Under the pieces are notes generated by a model, which saw nothing but the letters and a program-made list of their open reading frames with translations, made no database searches and was not told where the DNA came from. The translations under genes and the position numbers were made by a program. 64,000 nt of DNA, from assembly GCF_035953295.1 (NCBI RefSeq), contig NZ_CP108370.1, positions 7,735,001 through 7,799,000 on the forward strand, read 5' to 3'. This DNA comes from Streptomyces sp. NBC_01335. GTDB lineage: Bacteria > Actinomycetota > Actinomycetes > Streptomycetales > Streptomycetaceae. Below, piece after piece: positions 8,865 to 24,594 of this stretch (position 1 is the first letter of the stretch; the number at the start of each line of letters is the position of its first letter).

Positions 8865-9941
8865 TCAACGCGGTGAATCCATCGTCTGCCAGGGCGCTCC
8901 GTACGGCGACGGCGCACAGGCACGGCCGACCGGCTCGTGGTCGTCGGGGTGTGCCCGTCGTCGTGCGGTCCGCGGGGGCGGGCGTGTGGTGTCGAGCGGA
9001 CCGTCGCCGTAGAGGTCCTGGACCCAGTTGTCCTGGTACACGGTGTCGAGATAGCGCTCGCCGAGGTCGGGTGCGATGGCCACCGCGGTGAGGTCGGGCG
9101 TCCCGTGCCGCGCCAGCCAGGCGACCGCGCCGCTCACCACGGTGCCGGTGGAGCCGCCGAAGAGGAAGCCGCTCCGGGCCAGGCGGCGACAGGCGCGGAT
9201 CGTGTCCGCCTCCTCGACCCGCACCACCTCGTCCACGTACGACGCGTCCAGGAGCGGCGGGCGCATGCTCATGCCCAGCCCCGGGATCATCCGGCGGCCC
9301 GGGTCACCCCCGAACGCCACCGAGCCGACGGTGTCCACCGCGACGATCCGTACCGGGTGCTGCCGGTCCTGGAAGTACCGTGCGCACCCCATCAGCGTGC
9401 CCGCGGTCCCCGCTCCCACGAACAGGACGTCCAGGCGCGGGAAGGAGCGGGCGATCTCCGGAGCCGTGGTGCGGTAGTGCGCCCTCCAGTTGGCCGGGTT
9501 GGTGTACTGGCTCAGCCACACGTACCGGTCGTCGGAGGCGCACAGGCGCCGGACGTGGTCCAGCCGCGCGGCGAGGAAGCCGCCGCCGGTCTCCTGGCCG
9601 GCCACCAGCTGCACTTCGCCGCCCAGAGCCTCCATCATCAGCCGGGTGGTGAGGTTGCAGCGTGAGTCCGTCACACAGACGAACCGGTAGCCCTTGCTGG
9701 CCGCGATCATGCTCAGCGCGACGCCGAGGTTGCCGGAGGAGGACTCGACGAGCACGGAATCAGCCGTCAGGGTGCCGTCGCGTTCCGCCGACGCCACCAT
9801 CTCGGCGGCGGCCTTCAGCTTGATCGAGCCGGCGAAGTTGAAGCCCTCGCACTTGAGGAGCAACGCCTCCCCGAAGATCCGCTCGATGTCCACGTAGAGC
9901 TCCTCCTCGTCGAAGGCCTGAGGGACAGTGATGACCGACAC
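8865..9941 (-). CDS. sbnA: SbnA-like N-(2-amino-2-carboxyethyl)-L-glutamate synthase
   Basis: A 358-residue PLP enzyme of the cysteine synthase fold. The lysine of FNFAGSIKLKAA (Lys41) is the expected Schiff-base residue. SSSGNLGVALS replaces the classic SGNTG loop, and GGSTGTVVSG is the phosphate-binding loop. SbnA condenses O-phospho-L-serine with L-glutamate to give ACEGA, the first step to L-2,3-diaminopropionate. Pairing with an SbnB-like dehydrogenase 73 bp upstream supports SbnA rather than ordinary cysteine synthase. It is the last gene of the minus-strand operon. About 40 C-terminal residues beyond the fold are Arg/Pro-rich and look unconserved. Confidence 0.88.
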   Translation of the reverse strand: MSVITVPQAFDEEELYVDIERIFGEALLLKCEGFNFAGSIKLKAAAEMVASAERDGTLTADSVLVESSSGNLGVALSMIAASKGYRFVCVTDSRCNLTTRLMMEALGGEVQLVAGQETGGGFLAARLDHVRRLCASDDRYVWLSQYTNPANWRAHYRTTAPEIARSFPRLDVLFVGAGTAGTLMGCARYFQDRQHPVRIVAVDTVGSVAFGGDPGRRMIPGLGMSMRPPLLDASYVDEVVRVEEADTIRACRRLARSGFLFGGSTGTVVSGAVAWLARHGTPDLTAVAIAPDLGERYLDTVYQDNWVQDLYGDGPLDTTRPPPRTARRRAHPDDHEPVGRACAPSPYGAPWQTMDSPR

Positions 9942-10014
9942 GGTGAACTCCTCTTCGGGGCGTTTCCTGCGGGCTGTGCTGGGGCGGGCCGAATCCGGTG
10001 CGGGGCAGCCGCCT

Positions 10015-11085
10015 TCACCCGTAGCGGCTTCGTTCGTGGAAGAAGTCGTCGACGACCCGCAGCCGGCCGGAGTGGGCGACGCGGTCGTAGACGAAGCCGC
10101 CGACCGCGAGATCGAGCACGCCGAGGCCGAAAGGCGAGAAGACCGCCGGACGGTTCCTGGGTACGGTCACCCGCCCCGCCATCACGTCGTCCAGCGTGCC
10201 GTGCACGAAGTCCCGGTTGCCGGTGAGCTGTTCGGTCAGATGGGGAGAGGTGCCCGCCCTGAGACAGTGCTCGATGTCGTCGACGATGTTGGTCGAGGCC
10301 AGCAGGACCCGCGGGGCGAGATCGCGCAGCGACACGTGCAGGACCACGGGGTTGTGGTCGAACCACGCAGGATCGTCGACATGAGGTTCTCCGGCGACGG
10401 TCGCGAAGACCACGAGATCGCTGGTACGGATCAGGTCCTCCGGGGAGCGATGCACCGTGACGGGCGCGGCGCTGCCGGACTGTTCCACGTACAGCCGGAA
10501 TCCGGCCGCGCTGTCCGCGGAGACGTCGTACACCCCGATGTCGTCGAACGACCAGCCCGAGCCTTCGAGGAACGTATGGATGTAGCGGGCGATCAGACCG
10601 GTGCCGAAGAACCCGACGCGGGTGGGGCGTGGCCGGTCGCGGCTGAGCCGGTCGGCCGCCGAAGCGGCGGACGCGGCCGTTCTCGTGGCACTGATGATCG
10701 AGCTCTCCAGACAGGCGAACGGGTAACCCGTGGCGGGATCGTTGAGGATCAGCACGGCCGAGGCACGGGGAACGCCGGACCTCACGTTGGCCGGGAAGCT
10801 GGAGATCCACTTCAGTCCGTCCACCGGTGACTCACCACCGAGGGAGGCGGGCAGCGCGATCATCCGGGAAGCCGCACGGTCCGGGAAGCGGAGGAACGAG
10901 GAGGGCGGGTTCACCGTCCGGCCCGCACCGTGCAGCCGGTAGGCGGCCTCGACCACCTCCACGATCTCCTTCTCGCGGCCGTCGAGGGCACTTCGGACCT
11001 GGCTGCCGGGGATCACCGCGAACGAGGGCACGGTGACGTCCTCGGCCGTTGCGGATACGGGGGAGCCGGTGCGGTCGCTGTTCAT
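10015..11085 (-). CDS. sbnB: SbnB-like ACEGA dehydrogenase (2,3-diaminopropionate biosynthesis)
   Basis: A 356-residue protein of the ornithine cyclodeaminase/mu-crystallin fold. It has the entry segment GLKWISSFPANVRSGVPRAS, a Rossmann motif VGFFGTGLIARYIH and the late segment GLGVLDLAVGGFVYDRV. SbnB oxidatively hydrolyses ACEGA to L-2,3-diaminopropionate plus 2-oxoglutarate with NAD. The start at 11085 overlaps the stop of the oxygenase gene by 4 bp (ATGA). Together with the SbnA-like enzyme it provides a complete two-step route to diaminopropionate. Confidence 0.88.
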   Translation of the reverse strand: MNSDRTGSPVSATAEDVTVPSFAVIPGSQVRSALDGREKEIVEVVEAAYRLHGAGRTVNPPSSFLRFPDRAASRMIALPASLGGESPVDGLKWISSFPANVRSGVPRASAVLILNDPATGYPFACLESSIISATRTAASAASAADRLSRDRPRPTRVGFFGTGLIARYIHTFLEGSGWSFDDIGVYDVSADSAAGFRLYVEQSGSAAPVTVHRSPEDLIRTSDLVVFATVAGEPHVDDPAWFDHNPVVLHVSLRDLAPRVLLASTNIVDDIEHCLRAGTSPHLTEQLTGNRDFVHGTLDDVMAGRVTVPRNRPAVFSPFGLGVLDLAVGGFVYDRVAHSGRLRVVDDFFHERSRYG

Positions 11086-12089
11086 CGCGATCCCACCTCG
11101 ATCGTCTGCGAGCAGGTGTCCGGCCGGGTGGGCGAGGCCATCGCGACGACGACCTCGCGCGGTCCCTCGTAGGCCTCCCTGCTGTGCGCGGTACGGATGT
11201 TGTCCACGAGGAGCAGGTCACCGGCCTGCCACGGACGGCGCACGGTGTGCTCCTCGTAGACCGAGTTGATGAGCCGGACGACGTCCTCTCCGACGGCCTC
11301 GCCGCCGCCGTACCGCGTGTTGAACGGCAGGCCGTCGGGTCCGTACTCGTCGACGAGGTACTCGCGTACCTCGGGCGCGAGCGTCCACTCGTTCAGGAAG
11401 GCGATCTGGTTGGTCCAGCAGGGCCGCCCGTCGGCCGGGTGGCGCACCACGGCGCTGCGCCTCTGCGTGGTGCGCAGCCCTCCGTCGGGCTGCCAGGCGC
11501 AGGCGATCGCGTGGTCGTGGCAGTAGCGCTCCACCGCCTCGCGGTCGTCGGTGCCGAACGCCTCGGCCACGGTGGCTCCGACCTCGCCGTTGTAGTTACG
11601 GGTCAGGAGCCAGCCCTCCCGCTCGAACCGCGCGGTCAGCTCGCGCGGCAGGGCGCCGAGCACGGCCGACGCGTCGGCCAGGCCGGTGGCCCCGCCCGCG
11701 GTGGGCTCCGAAAGGCAGGCGAAGAGCAGGAGGCCGGGGAAGCCGATGGCGTAGCTCAGTTCGTGATGCATGCACATCGGCTGGTTCGGCGGCCAGGGGG
11801 AGGACGAGTGGACGCCGGGGGAGTAGGTCCGCCTGGGGGCGAAGGTCTCCCGTTCCGTCACCGGTTCTGCGGCCAGTCGGCCGAGGACCGCGGCGACGCC
11901 GTCCGTGTCGTGCAGGCCCAAGCCGCGGACCAGGACGGCCCCGTGTTCGTCGAGTGCGGCGCGCAGCCCGTCCCGGGCTCCGGCCGCCCAGTCCGCCGGG
12001 TCGCCGGCGGCCTGGACCCGCAGCATCGCGGGCCGGCCCGGTTCCCGTTCCGGATCGGCCGGGGCGGTGGCCGTTTCCATGGAAGTCAT
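11082..12089 (-). CDS. TauD/TfdA-family Fe(II)/2-oxoglutarate oxygenase, SyrP-like
   Basis: A 335-residue non-haem iron oxygenase. The facial triad is visible as MHHEL (His-x-Glu) and the distal His of VDNIRTAHSRE, with the 2-oxoglutarate Arg probably in YEGPREVV. Segments PNQPMCMHHELSYA and LLFACLSEPTAGGATGLADASAVL match SyrP-type enzymes, which act on aminoacyl groups held on NRPS carrier domains. It sits between the NRPS (27 bp upstream) and sbnB (4-bp overlap), so it is part of the pathway. Its exact reaction is unclear, because beta-hydroxylation of diaminopropionate would give an unstable hemiaminal. Desaturation or action on a different residue are alternatives. Confidence 0.82.
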   Translation of the reverse strand: MTSMETATAPADPEREPGRPAMLRVQAAGDPADWAAGARDGLRAALDEHGAVLVRGLGLHDTDGVAAVLGRLAAEPVTERETFAPRRTYSPGVHSSSPWPPNQPMCMHHELSYAIGFPGLLLFACLSEPTAGGATGLADASAVLGALPRELTARFEREGWLLTRNYNGEVGATVAEAFGTDDREAVERYCHDHAIACAWQPDGGLRTTQRRSAVVRHPADGRPCWTNQIAFLNEWTLAPEVREYLVDEYGPDGLPFNTRYGGGEAVGEDVVRLINSVYEEHTVRRPWQAGDLLLVDNIRTAHSREAYEGPREVVVAMASPTRPDTCSQTIEVGSR

Positions 12090-12116
12090 CGTGATCTCCT
12101 CAGGGTTGTGATCGGT

Positions 12117-14633
12117 TCACGAGGTGGAACGCGCGTCGACGCAGGAGGCGAGTTCGGTGAGTACGGGGTGACGGACCAGGTCCCCCAGCGACACCTCCCG
12201 GTCCAGGGAGACCGCCACCCTGACCGCCGACAGTGAAGTGCCTCCGCGGTCGAAGAAGTTGTCGTGTCTGCCCACGCGCTTCCGGGGGACCCCGAGCACG
12301 TCGGCCCAGACCGCTGCCAGACGTCGCTCGGTGGGAGTGCGGGGCAGGTCGTCGTTCTCGGCCGTGTCGGTCCGGTCCGATTCGGCAGCCCGTCCGGCCA
12401 GTTCCCGGCGGTCGGTCTTCCCGTTGGCGGTCAGCGGCAGCGTCTCCTGCCAGTGGAACGCCGACGGAAGCATGTACGCGGGCAGCGTGGCGCCGAGCCG
12501 GCTCCGCAGCACGTCGGCCCGCAGGGGGTGCGCACCGGTGTAGAAAGCGGTCAGATGCCGCCCCGGACCGGGCCGTTCGGCGACCACCACGGCGCCGTCG
12601 CGCACACCGGGTGTCCGCAGCAGAGCGTTCTCGATCTCACCGGTCTCGATCCGGAACCCCCGGATCTTGACCTGTGAGTCCCTGCGCCCGAGGAACTCCA
12701 GTTGCCCGTCGGGGAGCCAGCGGCCGTAGTCCCCACCCAGATGGAGCCGCTCGCCGGCGTGGTAGGGATCCGGCAGGAAGACGGCACTCGTCCGGTCCGG
12801 GTCGTTGACGTACCCCCGGCCGACACAGATTCCGGCGAAAGCTATGGCACCCGGCGCCCCCAGCGGTACCGGGGAGAGGTGCTCGTCCAGGAGATAGACG
12901 CGTACGTTGGCGACCGGACGGCCGAGCGGCACACGCGCAGCGTCCGGCACCCGGTCCATGACCGCGTGGTTGGTGTCGTCGGACGTCTCGGTCAGACCGT
13001 AGGCGTTGACCAGCGTCGTTCCGGGCACGGTGGTGAACCAGCGCTGGACGAGGCCCTTCTTCAGGGCTTCGCCGGTGACCGACACACAGCGCAGGTCGGG
13101 CAGTTCGCGCGCGTGCCGTTCCAGGAAGGCCAGGACGGCGTCGAGGTAGGACGGAACCATCTGCAGGACACCGACCCTGCCGTCCGCCAGGGTGTCGACG
13201 AACCGGCGGACGTCCAGGATCGCTTCCTGCCCCACCAGCAGGGTGCGTCCGCCCGTCAGCAGGGCCGACAGAAGCTGCCACACGGAGATGTCGAAGCACT
13301 GGGGTGCCGTCTGGGCGACCACGTCGCCCTCCCCGATCCCCAGGTCGTCGATCTTCGCGAGGAGATGGTTGAGCATGCCCGCGTGCTCCACCATCGCTCC
13401 CTTGGGCTCCCCGGTGGAGCCCGAGGTGAAGATGACGTAGGCGAGATCGTCCGGTCCGACCGGTACGCGGGGATCGGAGTCCTCGCGGTTCTCCTCGCAG
13501 AGCGTGTCTATGAACGACGTACGGACCCCTGTCAGGGACGTGACGGCGTCGTCGAGCGTGGTGCTGGTGCTGGTGCTGGTGCTGGTGCTGGTGCTTGTGC
13601 TTGTGCCGGGGTCGGTGAGCACCAGGCCGCAGTCGGCGCGGGCGAGCATGGAGGCGATGCGGTCGGCGGGGAAGTCCGGCTCGACGGGCAGGTAGACGCC
13701 GCCGGCCTTGAGGATCGCGAGGACCGAGGTCAGCCAGTTCAGGTTCCGTTCGGTCACCACGGCGACGACGTCCTGCCGGTCGAGCCCCGAGTCCAGCAGG
13801 GCGTGTGCGAGCCGGTTGGCGCGGTGGTCGAGCTCCTGGTAGGTACACCGCCTGTCACCGTGAACGGCCGCGACCCTGTCCGGGTGCGTGCGCGCCCGCT
13901 GGGCGAAGAGCTCGTGGACGCGCAGGCCGGGCAGTTCCCGGTGGGGCCCCGCGAGCCCGTCGACCTGATGACGGAGTTCCTCGGACGACAGCAGACTCTG
14001 CCGCCCGTGCGCCGCGTCGGGGTCCGCCGCGATCAGTCCGAGCGCGGCGAGGTGGTAACCGGCGATCCTTCTCGCGTACGCCTCGTCGAGAACCTCGGTG
14101 CTGTAGAGCAGCCGGAGCACGTACGCGCCGTCGCGACGGACCAGCGCCACCCGCAGCACGGCCTTCCGCGCAGGTCCACCACCGCCCGTCGGATCGAACA
14201 CCACTTCGGGCGGGGTGGCCGGGAGGCCCAGCTCCGCGCGGAGGGCGTCGACCGGAAAGTCCTGGTGGGCCAGCAGCTCCGACTCCGTACGGTCCGCGTG
14301 CCGCACCAGCTCCCGCCACGTGGCGCAGCCGGTCGACAGCCGGCACGGCAGCGGACCGGAGGCCGCGGCTGCCACGAAGCCGGTGGTGACGTCGGGTTCC
14401 CCGGTCAGCGCGGCCAGCACCTTGGCGTGGGCGGCCAGGACGGGAGAGGCGGGGCGGACCCCCATCGACGTCGTCAGCCGGTCCAGTTCGGTCACGAGCG
14501 CCGCCGGTACGGCAGTCTCGACCACCGAGGTGCCGGGCACCGGATCGCGGGTCCACCGCGCCAGTGAGGTGGTTCCTCCGGCGGTGAGCACATCGCGCCA
14601 GTAATCCGAAGGGGTGCGTGTCGACGTGTTCAT
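12117..14633 (-). CDS. NRPS: half-condensation, adenylation, carrier protein
   Basis: An 838-residue synthetase. Residues 1 to about 235 resemble only the second half of a condensation domain (DYWRDVL ... ELLAHQDFPVDALRAELGL); the HHxxxDG half is missing. A full adenylation domain follows, with YVIFTSGSTGEPKGAMVEH (A3), FDISVWQ (A4), NAYGLTETSDD (A5), LHLGGDYGRWLPDGQLEFLGRR (A7/A8 region) and LPLTANGKTDRREL (A10). The carrier domain is DNFFDRGGTSLSAV, with its pantetheinyl Ser. By eye, the specificity positions read roughly D-I-W-Q-S-T-A-D-K. A Thr-Ser repeat is inserted between A2 and A3. The ATG at 14633 overlaps the upstream stop (ATGA) and has a GAGGAGG ribosome site. It probably loads diaminopropionate. 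Confidence 0.88.
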   Translation of the reverse strand: MNTSTRTPSDYWRDVLTAGGTTSLARWTRDPVPGTSVVETAVPAALVTELDRLTTSMGVRPASPVLAAHAKVLAALTGEPDVTTGFVAAAASGPLPCRLSTGCATWRELVRHADRTESELLAHQDFPVDALRAELGLPATPPEVVFDPTGGGGPARKAVLRVALVRRDGAYVLRLLYSTEVLDEAYARRIAGYHLAALGLIAADPDAAHGRQSLLSSEELRHQVDGLAGPHRELPGLRVHELFAQRARTHPDRVAAVHGDRRCTYQELDHRANRLAHALLDSGLDRQDVVAVVTERNLNWLTSVLAILKAGGVYLPVEPDFPADRIASMLARADCGLVLTDPGTSTSTSTSTSTSTSTTLDDAVTSLTGVRTSFIDTLCEENREDSDPRVPVGPDDLAYVIFTSGSTGEPKGAMVEHAGMLNHLLAKIDDLGIGEGDVVAQTAPQCFDISVWQLLSALLTGGRTLLVGQEAILDVRRFVDTLADGRVGVLQMVPSYLDAVLAFLERHARELPDLRCVSVTGEALKKGLVQRWFTTVPGTTLVNAYGLTETSDDTNHAVMDRVPDAARVPLGRPVANVRVYLLDEHLSPVPLGAPGAIAFAGICVGRGYVNDPDRTSAVFLPDPYHAGERLHLGGDYGRWLPDGQLEFLGRRDSQVKIRGFRIETGEIENALLRTPGVRDGAVVVAERPGPGRHLTAFYTGAHPLRADVLRSRLGATLPAYMLPSAFHWQETLPLTANGKTDRRELAGRAAESDRTDTAENDDLPRTPTERRLAAVWADVLGVPRKRVGRHDNFFDRGGTSLSAVRVAVSLDREVSLGDLVRHPVLTELASCVDARSTS
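13561..13605. repeat. Hexamer microsatellite inside the adenylation domain
   Basis: Five GTGCTG and two GTGCTT units on the plus strand encode an alternating Thr-Ser run on the minus strand, in the loop between core motifs A2 and A3. Length changes by whole hexamers keep the frame, so this is a potential variable linker. Confidence 0.85.
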
Positions 14634-17176
14634 CGTGTCGCCTCCTCGCCCCGGGCGGTTGCCCGGTCGATCCGAGTGGCCGGATTTCCACCCCACCGGG
14701 CGTTCTCCGGCACCGACTCCCCCTTCATCAGGAAGGAATCCGGAGCGAGTACCGCTCCGTCGCCGATCGTGACGCCGTAGTGCACGAAGGCTCCGACCCC
14801 GAGCGTGCAGCGGGAGCCGATGGTGGTGCGGTCGGACTTGAAGGTGCCGTCCTCCTGCGAGTGACACTGGACGACACTGCCGGTGTTGAGCGCGGAGCCG
14901 TCCCCGATGGTGACCATCGTCCGCTCCGTCAGGAAGCAGCCGTCGTCGAAGACCCGGCGTCCGATCCGCACCCCCAGCAGCCGCCAGATCAGCCCCTTGA
15001 AGGGCGTTCCGTCGAAAGTCTTGAGGAACAGTTCCGACGGCACCTTCCAGAAGCGTTCACGCCGCCAGAAGCGGCGGTCGTAGATCGAGCAGAAGAGCGG
15101 GCCCGGCGGGTGGGAGGACGTGACCGCGCGTTCCACGAGGACGAAGTACGCGGCACTGACGAGCAGGACCAGGACGTTGCCCAGCGCGACAGCCGCGGCG
15201 CCGACCGACGTGTAGAGCTCGGCCGAACCCGAGACGACCAGGGTGACCAGGAACGCGTAGACCCACCTGACCACCAGGTACAGCCCCATGGTGCCCGCGT
15301 TGTGCCTGTTCTTGGCGGCCAGACCGGTGCGTAGCTCCGCGCCGGACTTCATGAGGTCGAAGCTGCTGTCGCGCTGGACCGACCTGGGTATCTCGAAGCT
15401 GGGCGAGCCCAGGAGGCCGACTCCTTCCCGGATCCTTCCGTCCACCGGGACCATGACCTTGGTCGCCAGCAGGCAGTCGGCCCCCGTTCGGCCCCGGGAG
15501 GGGTAGGCGATCCTGTTGCCGAGGAAGTTCTGCGGTCCGATCGCGGTGCGGGAGACGCGGAAGGACGTGCTGGAGAACTCGGCGTTGTTGATCGACAGCC
15601 CGTCGGCGACCATCGTCCCCGCCCCGACCGTACTCAGATAGGGCGTCTCGTGCTTCACCTCGGTCCCGAAGTTCGATCCCGTCTGCTCCACCCGGGAGAG
15701 GTCGTAACCGAGCAGACGAAGGTAGGGGACCACGGCGGAACTGTCGCCGAACAGGCGCGTGAGGAAGGGCCGGTTGGTCAGCAGGGTGATCGCCCGGTGC
15801 ACCCCGTAGTGGAAGCCGTAGAGAGGATAGACCCTGTCCGGCGTGATGGTCCGGGCGAGCAGCCGGGGGACGGCGGCGAGTACGAGGAAGCCGAGCGGCA
15901 TGATCACGAAGAGCAGTACGAAGGAGATGGCCAGGGCGTCGCGGTAGAACACCCATGTCGTGAGGATCGAGGGACCCGGTTCCAGCACGGCGGAGAGCTG
16001 CGGGGCCTCGGCGAGCAGAATGCCGATGCCTCCGACGGCCAGCGGCAGGTACACCAGCAGCGCGGTCAGCAACTGCGTGACGCTGTGGAGCTGCCTGCGT
16101 ACGGCGCCACAGGGCACGGGTTCCACCACCGGGTACTCCCGGTCGGCGCGCCGCGCCGGTGAGCCGTGCCAGGACTCACCGGCGGGTACCCGCTGCCCGC
16201 TGTGGAGGGCGGACGCGTGGGCCAGCCGGGCGCCGTCGCCGAGGGACGTACCGATGTCGAGCACCGAGGCCTCGGCGACGACCACGTCCTTCCCGAGCGA
16301 CACGGTGCCGGTCTCGATGACGCCCCCGTGGGCGCGATAGCCGGTGAAGAAGGAGTCCTTGCGGATGACCGTGGAGTCACCGACGGACAGCAGGTCGGTA
16401 CAGAGGGGCACATGACGGGAGAGGACCGTGACGCCCGACCCGATCCGCGCGCCCAGCGCCCTGAGATAGAGCGTGTAGAGCGGCGACCCGACGAAGAGGA
16501 CGAGCGGATCCGAACGGACGAGTGTCTTGACGACCCAGAGACGGAAGTACGCCAGGCTCCAGATGCGGATCCGTTGCGGCTTCCAGTGCCCCACGAGGGC
16601 CCACTTGACGAGTATCGGGGCGACCGACAGCCCGACGAACACCGCGCCGCCGAAGGCGACTGAACGGAGGTACACGTCGAGCGCGCCGGTTCCGGCGGAT
16701 ATCCACTCGTAGCCGTGGACACCGACGAACGCGACGAGGAACGAGTAGACGAGGAAGGTCAGCAACTGCATCGCCCCGCACAGGACGTACCTCGCCCTGC
16801 CCGAGGGAGCCGCCGGCGCAGGGGCGGACGGTGCGAGGGCGGGGGCCGACGGCTCGACGGGTGCGGGGGGAGCGGTGGCCGTCAGAGCGAGGGCCAGATT
16901 CCGGACGGTGCTGTGCTCGTAGACGTCGCGGATGGAGACCGGCGGCAGGTCCGCGCACTTTCTGACCCGCGCGCAGAAATGAGCCATCACCAGAGAGTCG
17001 GCACCAAGGTCCTTGAAGAAGTGACTGTCGGCCGGCACTTGATCGAGTCGCATGACGTCGGCGAGCACGTCCGCGAAGGCCGCTTCGGCGCGGGCAACCG
17101 GTTCGGTGGGGTGCCCGTGCCGGGCAGGGGCTCCCTCGGTGGGCGGCGACGAAGCGGCAAGCTGCGTTCCGGTCAT
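14630..17176 (-). CDS. Pls/PosA-type membrane peptide polymerase with N-terminal carrier domain
   Basis: An 848-residue membrane protein. A carrier domain (about residues 35-105, FFKDLGADSLVMAHF with the pantetheinyl Ser) and an Ala/Pro linker lead into the NRPS terminal module of epsilon-poly-L-lysine synthetase type (Pls/PosA). Three pairs of transmembrane helices alternate with left-handed beta-helix, acyltransferase-like domains (for example RIGSGVTVLSRHVPLCTD, VKHETPYLSTVGAGTMVADG, RTTIGSRCTLGVGAFVHYGV). In Pls these tandem domains form the isopeptide bonds that make the polymer. Here no adenylation domain is attached; it is on the next gene, overlapping by 4 bp. Start 17176 was chosen over 17206 for its GAGGGA ribosome site. 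First gene of the operon. Confidence 0.85.
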   Translation of the reverse strand: MTGTQLAASSPPTEGAPARHGHPTEPVARAEAAFADVLADVMRLDQVPADSHFFKDLGADSLVMAHFCARVRKCADLPPVSIRDVYEHSTVRNLALALTATAPPAPVEPSAPALAPSAPAPAAPSGRARYVLCGAMQLLTFLVYSFLVAFVGVHGYEWISAGTGALDVYLRSVAFGGAVFVGLSVAPILVKWALVGHWKPQRIRIWSLAYFRLWVVKTLVRSDPLVLFVGSPLYTLYLRALGARIGSGVTVLSRHVPLCTDLLSVGDSTVIRKDSFFTGYRAHGGVIETGTVSLGKDVVVAEASVLDIGTSLGDGARLAHASALHSGQRVPAGESWHGSPARRADREYPVVEPVPCGAVRRQLHSVTQLLTALLVYLPLAVGGIGILLAEAPQLSAVLEPGPSILTTWVFYRDALAISFVLLFVIMPLGFLVLAAVPRLLARTITPDRVYPLYGFHYGVHRAITLLTNRPFLTRLFGDSSAVVPYLRLLGYDLSRVEQTGSNFGTEVKHETPYLSTVGAGTMVADGLSINNAEFSSTSFRVSRTAIGPQNFLGNRIAYPSRGRTGADCLLATKVMVPVDGRIREGVGLLGSPSFEIPRSVQRDSSFDLMKSGAELRTGLAAKNRHNAGTMGLYLVVRWVYAFLVTLVVSGSAELYTSVGAAAVALGNVLVLLVSAAYFVLVERAVTSSHPPGPLFCSIYDRRFWRRERFWKVPSELFLKTFDGTPFKGLIWRLLGVRIGRRVFDDGCFLTERTMVTIGDGSALNTGSVVQCHSQEDGTFKSDRTTIGSRCTLGVGAFVHYGVTIGDGAVLAPDSFLMKGESVPENARWGGNPATRIDRATARGEEATR

Positions 17177-17544: not shown

Positions 17545-18501
17545 TCACTCCCCGGAGGCGTCCGGCCACACCCCGATGTGGTCCCGTTCGAGTTCCAGCA
17601 TGACCCGGTGCTCCATGCCCAACGCCTCGGTGTAGTCCGCCGGGAGCTGCAGCCGGCCCGCCCGGTCGAGCATCGCGTACTCGCGGGCCACCAGGGACTC
17701 CTGGCCCGTCGCCGCGTCGACCTCGGTGTGCCGGAGCACCTCGGAGGAGGTGCGGCCGTCCCGGATCGCGACGGTGCGGCGTACCTCGTTCGCCACCGCC
17801 TGGTCGTGGGTGACGATCACGATCGTCGTGCCCAGCTCCTCGTTGGCACGGCGGAACGCGGCGAACACCTGCTCGCCCGTCGCGGAGTCCAGTTCACCGG
17901 TCGGCTCGTCGGCCAGCAGCACCGAGGGGTTGTTGGCCAGCGCGACCGCGATCGCCACCCGCTGCTGCTGTCCGCCGGACATCTGGGCGGGGCGGCGGTC
18001 CCGGCACTCCGTGACCTCCAGCATCTCCAGCAACGACTCGGCGCGGGCGGCCCGTTCGCGGTTCCTGCCGCGCCCGCGCAGCTGCATCGGAAGGGTGATG
18101 TTCTGCGCGGCGGTGAGGTACGACAGCAGGTTGCGGGAGGTCTGCTGCCAGACGAAGCCGACCACGTCACGGCGGTAGCGCAGCCGCTCTTTCGGTCCCA
18201 TCGCCAGCAGATCGCAGCCCGCCGCCTTCGCCGAACCGGCCGTGGGGACGTCGAGTCCCGCCAGGATGTTCATCAGGGTCGACTTCCCGCTCCCCGACGC
18301 GCCGACCAGCGCCATCAACTCGCCCTCGGCGACCAGGAGATCGAGACCCTGAAGGGCCTGCACCTCTACGCCGTCCGCGGAGAAGACGCGTACCAGCCGG
18401 TCGCAGACGATCAGGGCGTCGTGCCCGTAGGCGGGCCGGTCGCGGCGTGCGGCCGCCCGCCTTTCGAGCTCCGCCAGTGTGGTCTCCGTCGATGGTGTCA
18501 C
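17545..18501 (-). CDS. ABC transporter ATP-binding protein (MacB/LolD type)
   Basis: A 318-residue ATPase. Walker A is GASGSGKST, the Q loop is VGFVWQQTSRN, the signature is MSGGQQQRVAIA, Walker B is VLLADEPTGELDSATG, and the H loop is TIVIVTHD. The MacB/LolD subgroup works with FtsX-type permeases in mechanotransmission rather than true transmembrane transport. The GTG start at 18501 overlaps the permease stop by 4 bp (GTGA). About 45 C-terminal residues (RLQLPADYTEALGMEHRVMLELERDHIGVWP) extend beyond the fold. It is the last gene of a three-gene minus-strand unit. Confidence 0.92.
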   Translation of the reverse strand: MTPSTETTLAELERRAAARRDRPAYGHDALIVCDRLVRVFSADGVEVQALQGLDLLVAEGELMALVGASGSGKSTLMNILAGLDVPTAGSAKAAGCDLLAMGPKERLRYRRDVVGFVWQQTSRNLLSYLTAAQNITLPMQLRGRGRNRERAARAESLLEMLEVTECRDRRPAQMSGGQQQRVAIAVALANNPSVLLADEPTGELDSATGEQVFAAFRRANEELGTTIVIVTHDQAVANEVRRTVAIRDGRTSSEVLRHTEVDAATGQESLVAREYAMLDRAGRLQLPADYTEALGMEHRVMLELERDHIGVWPDASGE

Positions 18502-21269
18502 CGGGTGTCTCCTGCCCTGAGTTCCTTGATCGATCCACGGCGGCCCGACCACCACGCCTGCACACCGGCCACGACGGCGGTGAGTACGACCACTCCCAGC
18601 GCCGGGAGCGCCAGCGACCGGACGTCGGCCCGCAGCGAGGCGGTGTGCGGGTTCCCCGGTGCGGCGTCGGTCAGCGCCAGCGCGGACAGGTCGACACCGG
18701 GCGCCAGCAGGGCGATGGTCGCCCAGCCGACGAGGAGCCCGCCCACCGCCGCCAGCAGTGCCTGCGGCAGCGCCTCGAGGGCGAGCAGCCGCCGCCCCTG
18801 ACGGGGAGTGAGCCCCATGGTGCGCAGTCGTGCCAGGAGCGTGGTGCGCTCCGGCGCCGCCTGCAGCAGCGAGAGGACCACGGCGAGCAGCGCGTACCCC
18901 GCCCCGGCCACGACGGCCGCCTGGTAGATCCGTTCGGCGCCCGCCTGCACCGGGGAGTCCACGAGCTTCCCGCGCTCCGCCGACCGCAGCCGCACCACGT
19001 ACTCCGGGCCCGCCTCGCGCGCCGCCGCGCGCAGGAGCTTCTCGTCGAGGGCGGTTCCGGTCACCAGCAAGGTGGTGGGGTCCGGCGCGGCGAGCGCCTC
19101 GGCGTCGACGATCAGGAATGCTCCGTCGCTCACCGCGGAGGTGCGCGGCAGCACCCCGGCGACCCGCACCGTGAGGCTGCCGCCCTGCGTCCGCACGGTC
19201 CGGGGCCGCTCGCCGAACAGGTCCGCGACAGCGGGCGAGACGATCGCGGGCAGAGCCCCGCCCCGGTCCGGGCCGCCCTCCAGCGCGCCCGCCGGGAAGG
19301 CGGCCAGCCCCGTGGCGCGGGCCAGCCGCGCGTACGACGCGGGCTCGACCCCCACCACGGTCGCCCGTTCCGTGTCCGACCCCGTCTCCCGCGACGTGGC
19401 CAACTGCGTCCCGTACTCGATGTGCACGGGCGCGACGTCCTCGACGCCGTGCGCGGCCCGGAGCCGGCCGAGGACGTCCCCGGGGACCGTGGAGCGCGCC
19501 CCCTCGCCGCTGATGCGGGCGTCCGCGCCGACCGCGCGCAGCGCCGCGTCGGCGCGCGCGTCCGCGACACCCGTGAGTACGGAGCCCCCGAACGCCGCCG
19601 TGCTCAGCGCGACCAGCAGGGCCAGCAGGAGCAGCGTGCCGTTCGACGGGGCCCGGCCCGCCCGGGCCAGCGAGAGGAAACCGACCGCGCCGCGCAGTCG
19701 GGCCGCGGGGCGGGACGCCAGGCGCAGCGGCAGGGGGTACAGCCGTACGAGGACGAGCGCGGCGATCAGCCCCACCAGGACCGGGGCCGCGCTGACCAGC
19801 AGGTCGGTCCCCGAGCCCGTCGTCGTACCGCGGCGGCGGAGCGCGGCGACGGCGCCGGCCGCCAGGACGAGCAGCGTCAGTTCGGCGACCGTACGCCGGC
19901 GGGTGGGCCGGGCGTCGGCCATGTCGTCCCGGGCCCCGGGCAGCAGGGGCCGGCGATGGCGCAGGGTCGTGCGCAGGGGCAGCACCACGCAGACCGGTAC
20001 GGCGACGGCCGCGGCGCCCACCGCGGCGGGAGCGAACCCGGCGTCCGGGACGAGCAGGACGGCCAGGAGGAGCCCGAGCGCCGCCGCGGGCAGCGCGGCC
20101 GCGGCCGTCTCGGCGAGGAGGCGCATCCCGATGCCCCGGAGGGAGCCGCCGCGCGAGCGCAGCAACGCGAGTTCGTGGTGGCGGCGGGCACCGATCAGCC
20201 CGCCGGTCATCAGGAGGACGACGGCGGCGACCGCGGCGATGCCCACGGCCGCGACGGTGACCACCGGGTCGATCGCGGCGCGCGTCGCGAGGTGGGCGTC
20301 GAGGATCGCGTCGAGTTCGGTGGTGAGCGTGGTGGTCGGCCCGGTGACGTCCCGGAGCTTCAGCAGGCCGGGGCCGTGCTCCGCCGCGGCGACGGCTGTG
20401 CTCGTACGGGAGGCGTCGGCGGCGGTGAGGCGGGAGGCGTCCGGGGCGAATCGCCAGAACAGTTCGGGCTCGCCCGTGGTCGCGAGGAGCGCCGGCGCCG
20501 CGTCCGGCGGCAGCAGCAGTGCGGCCGTCCAGAAGTAGACCGGGGTCGGGGAGCCCGGGTCCTTCGCCAGGGACGGGGAGCGGAACAGTGGCTCGACCGA
20601 CCAGTAGCCGCTCTCCGGCCGCAGCGGTGCGACGATTCCGGTGATCCGGACGGTGAGCGTCGCCCTGCCGTGGGTCACCAGCGCGATCGTGGAGCCGGGC
20701 GCCATCTTCAGCTCGGCGGCCGTCTCCTCGGTGACGGCCGCTTCCACCTCGCGGGAGGCCTCGGTCACCTCGCCGTGCACCACCGGCCAGCGCCCCGCCC
20801 GCAGCGTGCCGTGTTCGGCGAGTCCCGACGGGGCCGCGTAGGTGAACCGGGGCGGCAACCCGTTGGGACGCGGGAGCCATGGCTCCTGGGCGACCAGCGG
20901 CTCCGTGGTGTGCACGCCGTACGAGGAGTGCGGCACGTCGGCCCGCAGCGGGGCGGGGAGCGTCCCCGCCAGTGCCTCGTTCGCCTTGGCCAGCGCTTGG
21001 CGACGCATCGCCCGCTCCCTGACCGAGGGCGCCTGCGAGAGCGAAGGCGGCGGCGCGGTCACTTCGAGCACGCTCCGCCCCGGCGCGGCGGTCGTGATGT
21101 CGTGCCGCAGCGCATCCGTCCCGTACGCGTCGACCGCGCGCGGGAACACGGCGGCGAGGAACGCCGTCAGGAGCACGAGGGCCGCGAGGGCGACGGAGAC
21201 ACCGGGGGCGGTACGCAGCCGGGTGCGCACCCAGGGAGCGCAGGCGGCCGGGATCCGGGCAGTGTTCAT
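18498..21269 (-). CDS. FtsX-like ABC permease
   Basis: A 923-residue membrane protein with an N-terminal helix (SVALAALVLLTAFLAAVFP), large extracytoplasmic stretches, and groups of transmembrane helices (for example VVTVAAVGIAAVAAVVLLMTGG and YALLAVVLSLLQAAPE). The FtsX-type cytoplasmic motif ERTTLLARLRTMGLTPRQGRRLLALE follows the first C-terminal helix. Two FtsX repeats are fused in one chain, usual for actinobacterial exporters of this class. It begins one base after the upstream permease ends and overlaps the ATPase gene by 4 bp, so all three are one translation unit. Confidence 0.88.
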   Translation of the reverse strand: MNTARIPAACAPWVRTRLRTAPGVSVALAALVLLTAFLAAVFPRAVDAYGTDALRHDITTAAPGRSVLEVTAPPPSLSQAPSVRERAMRRQALAKANEALAGTLPAPLRADVPHSSYGVHTTEPLVAQEPWLPRPNGLPPRFTYAAPSGLAEHGTLRAGRWPVVHGEVTEASREVEAAVTEETAAELKMAPGSTIALVTHGRATLTVRITGIVAPLRPESGYWSVEPLFRSPSLAKDPGSPTPVYFWTAALLLPPDAAPALLATTGEPELFWRFAPDASRLTAADASRTSTAVAAAEHGPGLLKLRDVTGPTTTLTTELDAILDAHLATRAAIDPVVTVAAVGIAAVAAVVLLMTGGLIGARRHHELALLRSRGGSLRGIGMRLLAETAAAALPAAALGLLLAVLLVPDAGFAPAAVGAAAVAVPVCVVLPLRTTLRHRRPLLPGARDDMADARPTRRRTVAELTLLVLAAGAVAALRRRGTTTGSGTDLLVSAAPVLVGLIAALVLVRLYPLPLRLASRPAARLRGAVGFLSLARAGRAPSNGTLLLLALLVALSTAAFGGSVLTGVADARADAALRAVGADARISGEGARSTVPGDVLGRLRAAHGVEDVAPVHIEYGTQLATSRETGSDTERATVVGVEPASYARLARATGLAAFPAGALEGGPDRGGALPAIVSPAVADLFGERPRTVRTQGGSLTVRVAGVLPRTSAVSDGAFLIVDAEALAAPDPTTLLVTGTALDEKLLRAAAREAGPEYVVRLRSAERGKLVDSPVQAGAERIYQAAVVAGAGYALLAVVLSLLQAAPERTTLLARLRTMGLTPRQGRRLLALEALPQALLAAVGGLLVGWATIALLAPGVDLSALALTDAAPGNPHTASLRADVRSLALPALGVVVLTAVVAGVQAWWSGRRGSIKELRAGDTR

Positions 21270-21270
21270 G

Positions 21271-24200
21271 TCAGTTGTCTCCCTGGTGGCGGAGCGACAC
21301 CGCAGGGTCGAAGCGCCGGAGTGCGATCGCCACGACGAAGAGCAGCGGCAGTGCGGCGACCGACGCCAGAAGGGCCGCCACCTGCCCGGCAGGCAGCAGC
21401 ACCAGCACGTCGGGCACGGGCCGGGCGGCCTGCCCGGTCAGTACGACGAGGGGCACGACCGCCCTGGTCAGCACGGCCCCCAGGGCGAGCCCGGTCAGCA
21501 GGGCGAGAGTGATCAGGACTCCTTGCTCGACTGCCAGCGCCCGGGCCAGTCGGCGGCGGGAAGCGCCCAGGGCGCGCAGCACGGCGAATTCGGCGGACCG
21601 CTCGCCCTGGGAGCCCACCAGGCCGACCGCGAAGCCGACCGCGGCCAGGGCGGCGGCCACGGCAGCGGCCGCGCGGAGCGCGGACTGCGGCCCGGCCCCC
21701 AGCGGATCGTCCGCCAGCTCCCGCGCCACCTCGTCCCGCACCCGCACCTGGGACGGGTCCGTGCCGGGCAGCGCGCGCAGCTCGGCCGCCACCGCCGGGC
21801 CGTCGCCCGGCGCCGTGCTCAGCCACCACTCGGTGGGCGCCGGTGTGGCCCCCGACCCTTGGCCCAGTGCTCCGGACACCGCCCTGAGGTCCAGCAGCAG
21901 GGCCCCGCCCGGCTTCGCGGTCACGTCCGCGGCGGCGCCGTCCGCAGAGCCCGTGGCCCCGCCGGGACCGGTGGTCGGGAGTTCCCGCACCGACTTCACC
22001 AGGGTCACCCGGACCGTTTCACCCGCCAGCGCGAGATCGACCTGCTGGCCCAACCGCGCCCCGGAGGAGGCCAGATACGCATCCGTGGCCACCGCCTTCA
22101 AGGCCGGTGGTGCCGGACGGTCCGCACGGAGCAGCAGGGTGTCGACCTGTTCGGCGCCCCGGGAGCCGCGGTCCGCGAGGCCCGATCCGGTGCCGTAACG
22201 GAACGCGGGTGCCGCGCCCGTACCCGTCACCGTCTCGACCGCCCCGGCCGGGGTGTCCGCGTCCGGCCCGGTCACGGTCGACGTGGCCCGCCAGCGCACC
22301 CCGTCCGAAGAGGGAACCGGTCGCTCGCCGCCGTCCGCGGTGAGCGTCCGCAGCCGTGCGACGGAGACGAGGCGCCGCTCGGCGCGTCCCTCGGGCACGG
22401 CGCTGTCCAGCTCGAATCCGGTCACGGCCAGCCCGCCCGACGGGGACACGGGGAACGACAACGCGTGGGCCCGCCCGTCGACGGGAACGGTGCCCGCGGC
22501 CACCCGGTAGCGGATTCCGTAGCGGTCCTCCAGGACCACACCGACCCGCGGAGCCGAGCCGGAGGGCGACCTGCCGCCGGAGGCCGAGGTGTCGCCGATA
22601 CGCAGATCGAAGAGGACCCGTGTGCTGTCGGCGGGCAGCACCACACCGGTCCGTCCGGCCGCCGGCGGCGCGATCGCGTCGAACAGCGCCTGCGGCGACG
22701 CCCCGGCGAGGTCCTCGCGCATCAGCATCCGCTCGTCCGCGTGCGCGGTGTCGAGCGCCAGCACCTCTGCCGTCCGGCCGCCGGACAGCGGGGACGTCGC
22801 GCGGAACACGGGCGCCGCGTTCCGCACGCCCGGCAGTCCGGTGTACGGGGCCGCCTCGGCCGGGTCGCCGGACAGCCCGCCCACCACGCGCACCGACGCG
22901 CCGGATCTGAAGTCGGCCTGATCGTCCTGCGACCGGTCCCAGGACGCGCTCTGACCGATGGCCAGCATGCCCATCGCCACCGCCAGCACCAACAGCAGCA
23001 CGGGCCCCGCACCCCGCAGCGGCCGGCGGCTGAACTGCCAGCCGGCCAGCGCGGCGGTCAGACCCCGGCCGCCCGCCGCGCCGCGCTCCGCGAGCCTGGC
23101 CACCGGCGGCAGCAGCCGCAGCGTCACGACGGTGCCCGCCAGCAGCGCCAGCGCGGGGGCGGCGACCAGCAGCGGGTCGATGCCCAGCGCGCCGTCACGG
23201 TCGCCGCTGAGCGCACCGCCTCCGGCCGCGCCGGTCTGGCGGTCCAACTGCCAGTACGCCACCCCCGCGACGAGCAGCAGCCCGACGTCGGCGCCCGCCC
23301 GCACCGGGGCGGGCAGCGCGGAGGCACGGCCCGCCCGGCGCCCGCCCGCCGCGAGCGCAGGCGCGAGCACCGCGAGCGCGCACAGCAGCGCCACCGAGGA
23401 GGCGACCAGCCAGACCGTGCCGTCGACCCCGCCGTCGAGCCTCAGCCCGATCCGACCGAGCTCGCCCAGCCTCGCGAGCGACCTGGTCAGGGGAGCGGCG
23501 AGCAAGGGGGCGACGACCGCGGCGGGGGCCGCGAGCAGCAGCGCCTCGATCGCGGCGGAAGAAGCGATTCTGCCCCGTGAACCGCCCCTGGCCCGCAGGA
23601 GCTCGGTCTCACCGGCCCGCTCACTGCTCAGCAGGCCGGACACGAGCAGCAGCGCGTATCCGGCGAGCAGGACGAGCTGAACCGCCACGATCATGATCGT
23701 GGAGCGCGCCACCAGCAGGGCCCGATCGACCTGGTCGACGACGGCCGGCAGCGAGGTCCGGACCGTCGCACCGTCCGCGAACACCGGGGAGGCGGCCAGG
23801 GACTCGGGCACGTCCGTCGAGGCGCGCCGCAGGGCGCCGGTCCGGCCGGTGGTCACCGAGCGGAAATCGGCGGCGGCCAGCCAGGACACCCGTCCGGCAC
23901 TGAGCCGGCCCGAGCCGACCACGGCCGGGTCCGTCAGCAGCGGGCCGTACGTGGTGAAGACGACCTCGCCGGCACCCCGACCGCCGAGCGGGTCCAACCG
24001 CCAGTACGGGTCGGTCTGGTCGGCAGCCTCGTACACGCCGGTGATCTCGACCGCCAGGGGCGCGTCGCTCAGCCGGTCCGTGAGAGTGATCCGGGCGCCC
24101 GCCTCCAGCCCCAGCGCCGCGGCGGCCGCACGCGGCAGTGCCACCTGCACCGGCCCTCGGGCGTCTCCCTCACCGGTGGCGGGCATGCGGCCCGCGACGA

Positions 24201-24594
24201 GACGCACACGGTTCGGGTCCAGCGAGGCGAAGTGCGTCAGGTCGGGGTTGCCCCGCCGCTCCGCCGCCGGCTGCAGGCTCCGCGGCAGGGCGTACGGACC
24301 CGAACTCGCCATCTTCCGCACCGTCACCGGAAGTCCGTCGAAGGTCTCACCGGCGGCTCGGCGCACCAGAGCGTCGGCCTCCTCGCGCCGCTCCGGGGCC
24401 ACGTCGGCCGAGACGACGAGGGAGGACTGCTCGGCGGAACGACGGGTGAGCGTGTACCGCAGGGCGGCATCGCCCATGGAACCGGAGAACGCGGCGAGCG
24501 CGGTCAGCACGCAGGTGGTGAGCAGGACCGCCAACAGGGCCGCGCAGAGCAGGAGCCGGTGCGCGCGCACCCGCAGCAGGACGAACTCCGTCAC
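21271..24594 (-). CDS. Large FtsX-like ABC permease
   Basis: An 1107-residue permease, first of the exporter operon. An N-terminal helix (LLLCAALLAVLLTTCVLTALAAFSG) is followed by a very long extracytoplasmic region. Several helix bundles carry FtsX motifs such as ERAGETELLRARGGSRGRIASSAAIEALLLA and ERSAEFAVLRALGASRRRLARALAVEQGVL. The size and soluble-domain content suggest handling of a peptide or envelope substrate rather than a small ion. The neighbouring peptide-polymer operon makes product export or self-protection plausible, but the operons have separate promoters and the link is inference. Confidence 0.88.
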   Translation of the reverse strand: MTEFVLLRVRAHRLLLCAALLAVLLTTCVLTALAAFSGSMGDAALRYTLTRRSAEQSSLVVSADVAPERREEADALVRRAAGETFDGLPVTVRKMASSGPYALPRSLQPAAERRGNPDLTHFASLDPNRVRLVAGRMPATGEGDARGPVQVALPRAAAAALGLEAGARITLTDRLSDAPLAVEITGVYEAADQTDPYWRLDPLGGRGAGEVVFTTYGPLLTDPAVVGSGRLSAGRVSWLAAADFRSVTTGRTGALRRASTDVPESLAASPVFADGATVRTSLPAVVDQVDRALLVARSTIMIVAVQLVLLAGYALLLVSGLLSSERAGETELLRARGGSRGRIASSAAIEALLLAAPAAVVAPLLAAPLTRSLARLGELGRIGLRLDGGVDGTVWLVASSVALLCALAVLAPALAAGGRRAGRASALPAPVRAGADVGLLLVAGVAYWQLDRQTGAAGGGALSGDRDGALGIDPLLVAAPALALLAGTVVTLRLLPPVARLAERGAAGGRGLTAALAGWQFSRRPLRGAGPVLLLVLAVAMGMLAIGQSASWDRSQDDQADFRSGASVRVVGGLSGDPAEAAPYTGLPGVRNAAPVFRATSPLSGGRTAEVLALDTAHADERMLMREDLAGASPQALFDAIAPPAAGRTGVVLPADSTRVLFDLRIGDTSASGGRSPSGSAPRVGVVLEDRYGIRYRVAAGTVPVDGRAHALSFPVSPSGGLAVTGFELDSAVPEGRAERRLVSVARLRTLTADGGERPVPSSDGVRWRATSTVTGPDADTPAGAVETVTGTGAAPAFRYGTGSGLADRGSRGAEQVDTLLLRADRPAPPALKAVATDAYLASSGARLGQQVDLALAGETVRVTLVKSVRELPTTGPGGATGSADGAAADVTAKPGGALLLDLRAVSGALGQGSGATPAPTEWWLSTAPGDGPAVAAELRALPGTDPSQVRVRDEVARELADDPLGAGPQSALRAAAAVAAALAAVGFAVGLVGSQGERSAEFAVLRALGASRRRLARALAVEQGVLITLALLTGLALGAVLTRAVVPLVVLTGQAARPVPDVLVLLPAGQVAALLASVAALPLLFVVAIALRRFDPAVSLRHQGDN

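Follow-up and report, generated by a model that had tools for sequence, protein, structure and literature searches.

A probable split Pls/PosA-type diaminopropionate isopeptide synthetase encoded together with its precursor supply in Streptomyces

The window analyzed here is a stretch of 64,000 nucleotides from Streptomyces sp. NBC_01335 (contig NZ_CP108370.1, positions 7,735,001 to 7,799,000). On its minus strand, from position 17176 to 8865, open reading frame positions and hidden Markov model (HMM) profiles identify five genes in the order pls-like, nonribosomal peptide synthetase (NRPS), tauD, sbnB, and sbnA. We interpret these genes, with moderate confidence, as a split Pls/PosA-type synthetase of l-2,3-diaminopropionate (Dap) isopeptides that has its own precursor supply. 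As a variant of the Pls family, the operon is genuine and conserved. A chance origin of the five-gene set is excluded by the HMM scores and by its conservation: among 71 related loci that extend 7.5 kb or more past the polymerase, all four partner genes are present in 64, and in all 65 NRPS-bearing loci the NRPS gene has the same orientation as the polymerase and starts within 1 kb downstream of it. All five coupled genes lie at the positions given by an earlier sequence-only reading. The junctions are a 4-bp ATGA overlap (pls-like/NRPS), a 27-bp gap (NRPS/tauD), a 4-bp overlap (tauD/sbnB), and a 73-bp gap (sbnB/sbnA), the last gene starting with GTG.

The first gene (14630..17176) encodes a polymerase of 848 residues. 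It matches TIGR02353, the profile of the Pls/PosA terminal domain, with 721.5 bits (cut-off, 423.1) over profile positions 2–695 of 695, and this membrane polymerization domain spans residues 133–833 (14678..16780). A hydropathy scan, in which windows were merged by hand, gave six hydrophobic segments in three pairs (residues 130–156, 168–197, 363–392, 407–442, 629–652, and 654–687). Ahead of the membrane domain is a PF00550 carrier (T) domain (residues 35–96; 16889..17074) with an LGADSL serine, and the motif LGADS(L/M) is kept in 120 of the 120 best polymerase homologs. The Pfam search detected no adenylation (A) domain (PF00501) on the 848-residue protein, in agreement with the earlier description of an A-less polymerase accompanied by a separate half-condensation (half-C)/A/T NRPS. 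Since this composition is unlike that of the characterized members, we file the protein as a split variant rather than a standard Pls/PosA member. The domain content supports the view that it is related to Pls, with loading as a task that would fall to another protein.

The candidate loader is the half-C/A/T synthetase of 838 residues (12117..14633), in which Pfam recognizes PF00501, PF13193, and PF00550. The A domain (PF00501 and PF13193) lies at 12399..13907, and the T domain (PF00550, residues 771–831; 12141..12323) has a GGTSL serine. In an AlphaFold2 model (mean predicted local distance difference test score (pLDDT), 76.9), the first ~205 residues resemble a condensation domain of which only the C-terminal lobe is left. 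The alignments of the model start at residues 2 and 7 against EntF residues 187 (5t3d) and 192 (5ja2), respectively, and at residue 7 against SrfA-C residue 197. This half-C domain (13944..14633), assigned from the model alignments and a motif scan, has only this lobe and no HHxxxDG motif; HHxxxD is absent from the first 230 residues in all of the 120 best NRPS homologs, and no match of the Pfam condensation model was listed at the half-C site in a search of the source genome. We therefore do not expect peptide bond formation by the half-C domain.

The product of tauD (11082..12089) matches PF02668 with 142 bits. Its residues H108, E110, H302, and R311, which we take from the TauD family to be the HxD/E pair, the distal histidine, and the arginine of an HxE...H...R arrangement, are invariant in 24 aligned sequences, and the assignment as an Fe(II)/2-oxoglutarate oxygenase is thus upheld. 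A homolog, P0359, is annotated as a syringomycin biosynthesis enzyme; among the matches listed in a fold search, At3g21360 alone offered a clue to function. SyrP is a hydroxylase of carrier-bound amino acids, a TauD-type enzyme beside an A-T protein as in the window, the likeness lying in enzyme type and gene context. The remaining genes match their profiles above the curated cut-offs, sbnB (10015..11085) with 404.2 bits to TIGR03944 (cut-off, 326.9) and sbnA (8865..9941) with 382.1 bits to TIGR03945 (cut-off, 349.95), and they are adjacent, which bears out their identification as Dap supply genes.

These assignments suggest the following pathway. SbnA and SbnB would make Dap, and the half-C/A/T protein would activate it and load its own carrier. 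The same protein would also load the carrier of the A-less polymerase in trans, either directly or by transfer. TauD may oxidize Dap, by hydroxylation or desaturation, on the carrier or in the chain, and the membrane domain would then form an isopeptide oligomer or polymer.

The proposed system shares parts with known ones. The poly-l-diaminopropionate synthetase of Streptomyces albulus PD-1 likewise has a carrier and a membrane polymerization domain, and Dap is supplied there by homologs of cysteine synthase and ornithine cyclodeaminase; it differs in that this one protein also carries the A domain, and the main text of that article never uses the word "oxygenase" (PMC4668381). Pls and PosA, as far as PMC10522769 describes them, share the TIGR02353 domain and the three membrane-helix pairs but have a fused A domain with another code (DMEHNGTVSK in PosA). 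The long Streptomyces class is ~29% identical to the window polymerization domain. Sulfazecin biosynthesis, in the portions of PMC11298585 and PMC6097109 that deal with it, also involves a Dap-activating A domain (SulM module 3), Dap supply genes (SulG/SulH), and a 2-oxoglutarate oxygenase (SulO) acting on the Dap-derived unit; in contrast, the product is a β-lactam made via a thioesterase, with a sulfotransferase, and these portions describe no Pls-type polymerase. No description of the operon was recognized in searches of the open-access literature, MIBiG and subscription papers being outside the search, and within that scope the expectation that no identical cluster has been characterized held. 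A proteomic study of S. scabies, in the part concerned, mentions an SbnB near sbnA and an NRPS, which may represent this operon (PMC11479980). A comb-like Dap polymer cited in PMC9606270 was considered as the product and set aside, as nothing found, in the part of that source that mentions it, links its genes to the operon.

This gene arrangement is a common one. In a scan of named genomes (the best 80 of 588 loci), the partners near the polymerase were counted at the 71 loci defined above: NRPS at 65, TauD at 66, SbnB at 64, and SbnA at 65. Full sets include those of Streptomyces, Actinacidiphila, Pseudonocardia, Kibdelosporangium, Actinomadura, Rhodococcus, and Blastococcus; the SbnA of Blastococcus (L104) is a fragment at a contig end. 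In five loci, SbnA lies upstream, and two of these have it reversed. In a survey of 394 Streptomycetaceae genomes, TIGR02353 matched over its cut-off in 248, and the half-C part matched at E 1e-25 or better in 73, of which the weakest may be other proteins. Among the matches listed, 31 of the 34 short polymerase rows (open frame of at most 1106 residues) have a half-C match within 2 kb. One short row without it, G170, belongs to the long class by sequence (28.6% identity) and has A-domain hits just upstream; the remaining two are G237 and the second copy of G215, described below. In a class-wide draw of 394 genomes, P0001 was matched at E 1e-60 or better in 17, four of them outside the genus. 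Two of these genomes contain a second polymerase copy: G444 has the whole set (L137) and a copy without partners (L136), and G474 has a set whose SbnA is cut by a contig end (L138) and a copy (L139) with only an SbnA fragment at a contig end.

The most probable alternative, although we consider it unlikely, is a short mixed product: the A-T protein and TauD would make a single oxidized capping or starting residue, and the Pls domain would link this residue to a soluble acceptor such as free Dap. One A domain faces two carriers, as this alternative would have it. Fusions also suggest chemistry on the NRPS carrier, since a thioesterase, judged by length, is fused in ~39 of the 120 best NRPS homologs (with GHSSG or GQSSG in 38 of 38 checked) and TauD in 7 of the 120. 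It is favored further by the gene-family comparison near the operon, which covered 81 loci including the window: beyond the five operon genes, no family occurred near more than 16 of them, as judged by rough gene calling in which the strand was sometimes wrong and an upstream ATPase gene was missed. On the other hand, the polymerization domain is complete, and the two or three tandem carriers that precede it in some Pls relatives fit repeated use. The thioesterase is not obligatory either; because it is absent from the window NRPS and from 27 of the 65 NRPS-bearing loci, we consider editing a likelier function than obligatory transfer.

A second alternative, slightly less probable still, concerns the substrate: the A domain would activate 2,4-diaminobutyrate (Dab) or another diamino acid, and SbnA and SbnB would serve a different step. 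The A-domain code DIWQSTADDK, found in 59 of 65 rows, indicates an A domain of the diamino-acid type. By sequence, the best match of the pocket stretch among PDB sequences is 9n1u, the sulfazecin A3 domain solved with Dap; by structure, with the AlphaFold2 model, 9n1u also has the highest Z, nearly tied with others. The second-best pocket-stretch match is PvdL, whose code is DIWELTADD, and the matched PvdL module takes Dab. When the nine pocket positions were read by eye, seven were shared with PvdL and only five with the Dap domain of SulM, and Dab is therefore a candidate substrate. The pLDDT falls below 50 in model residues 444–449, where the first two pocket residues lie, so that the structural match speaks for the fold and not for the pocket. 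Against Dab stand the first place of the Dap-bound 9n1u by overall pocket-stretch score and the retention of both SbnA and SbnB with the operon in 64 of the 71 loci. We infer that Dap is the substrate rather than Dab. The earlier interpretation as a Dap polymerase is supported in part: the diamino-acid type of the A domain and the nearness of the pocket stretch to the SulM A3 domain stand, the preference for Dap is qualified by a code nearer to that of PvdL, and no observation pointed to activation of another amino acid independently of sbnA and sbnB. It is improbable that oxidation occurs outside the polymer, with TauD making a separate Dap derivative and Pls making plain poly-Dap, given the TauD-NRPS fusions described above.

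The history of the split can be approached through the A domains fused to Pls relatives, which are intact, broken, or absent. In L089 and L135, the core motifs are intact and the code begins DFECLSV; in L134, whose motifs are likewise intact, the code is lysine-like and starts with DAESIGT. No TauD, SbnA, or SbnB was found in the examined flanks of these three loci. The fused A domain is broken in L063 (8501–12511), P0075, P0102, P0110, and P0112, in which A3 is altered, A8 altered or missing, and A10 missing; L079 (1–3438) is truncated at the contig start, but its A8 is altered as well and it lacks A10. PF13193 is absent from the five broken forms scanned (L063, L079, P0075, P0102, and P0112), and a separate NRPS starts directly behind the broken form of L063. 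One A-domain position was readable in eight fused A domains, with a common residue in L089, L135, P0075, and P0112, residue A in L134, L in L063, and C in P0102 and P0110. From the broken domains, it seems that a fused loader, in part of the kind with this common residue, fell into decay as its role passed to a separate loader, and it was probably replaced in this way. We rejected the possibility that the A domain had simply been lost in the recent past, because in partial alignments the window polymerization domain is 27–31% identical to the long Streptomyces rows and 58–61% to other short rows and because the first tree splits the classes. Both trees set the long Streptomyces class apart from the rest, the first including one wrongly chosen row (L003).

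We also consider, more tentatively than the interpretation of the operon itself, that it represents widespread two-protein polycation synthetases. In these, Dap would be loaded and oxidized on a stand-alone A-T protein and passed to the carrier of an A-less Pls, giving an isopeptide of oxidized (hydroxy- or dehydro-) Dap, which is absent from the polymers mentioned in the literature found. The class may have arisen by decay of the fused A domain together with the recruitment of a diamino-acid loader of another lineage.

Several observations, in addition to the pocket residues, weigh against our interpretation. For the TauD step, free Dap bearing a hydroxyl group next to an amine would, on chemical grounds, not be stable. 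A second gene of the SbnB family in the source genome (C1:3783352-3784329; 338.2 bits) is also over the cut-off. At least one partner is absent in 7 of the 71 loci: L050, L057, L061, L070, and L089 have none, the first four being A-less polymerases without a partner in the examined stretch and L089 having its own fused A domain; L075 lacks SbnB, and L092 has TauD only. Elsewhere, G237 (L141) has the polymerase, TauD, SbnB, and SbnA but no NRPS, and neither L140, the second copy of G215, nor L136 has any partner. One in-frame TGA interrupts 3 of the 21 polymerase rows of the class-wide draw (L119, L123, and L124, all A-less), a sign of either gene decay or sequencing error. In the second tree, the intact fused forms fall within the A-less clade, whose inner branches are weak, and the outgroup is very distant; we therefore claim no number or direction of A-domain losses. 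Finally, the characterized synthetases of the Pls family, as far as PMC4668381 and PMC10522769 describe them, are single A-T-membrane proteins.

Other features were noted in and around these genes. A 6-bp repeat, present eight times at 13559–13606, encodes a Thr-Ser run within the A domain; P0123, near-identical to the window NRPS (831 of 838 residues), is four residues shorter at this run. At L034:7829-8149, a half-C part (query residues 46–152) lies on the opposite strand ahead of the remaining NRPS, as if inverted or misassembled, and the half-C part of G283 is similarly split over two strands. P0076 is a Pls relative with peptidoglycan-binding domains near the C-terminus. A phosphopantetheinyl-transferase-like gene was recognized by eye in seven loci (L045, L052, L054, L060, L068, L094, and L104). 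Directly after sbnA, on the minus strand (8923–7353, with uncertain starts), are genes for an extracytoplasmic function (ECF)-type sigma factor (PF04542 and PF08281) and then an RskA-type anti-sigma factor (PF10099, 107.8 bits). By the rough gene calls, this sigma family is present in 16 of the 81 loci including the window, and the sigma factor may therefore regulate the operon. The upstream ATP-binding cassette transporter genes (17545–24594) were rejected as part of the unit, as both permease genes fall outside the families common to other loci in the same calls, which missed the ATPase gene. Ahead of the window, the source genome has a single open frame of 8030 residues (C1:7698066-7719425) with seven condensation-domain matches, the last ending ~24 kb from the operon.

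If our interpretation is true, the operon is a common and compact source of Dap polymers and shows how a single-protein polymerase can divide into a loader and a polymerase. The natural separation would allow tests of what an A domain must provide to the Pls membrane domain, and the broken fused A domains would show a trans-acting counterpart taking the place of a cis domain.
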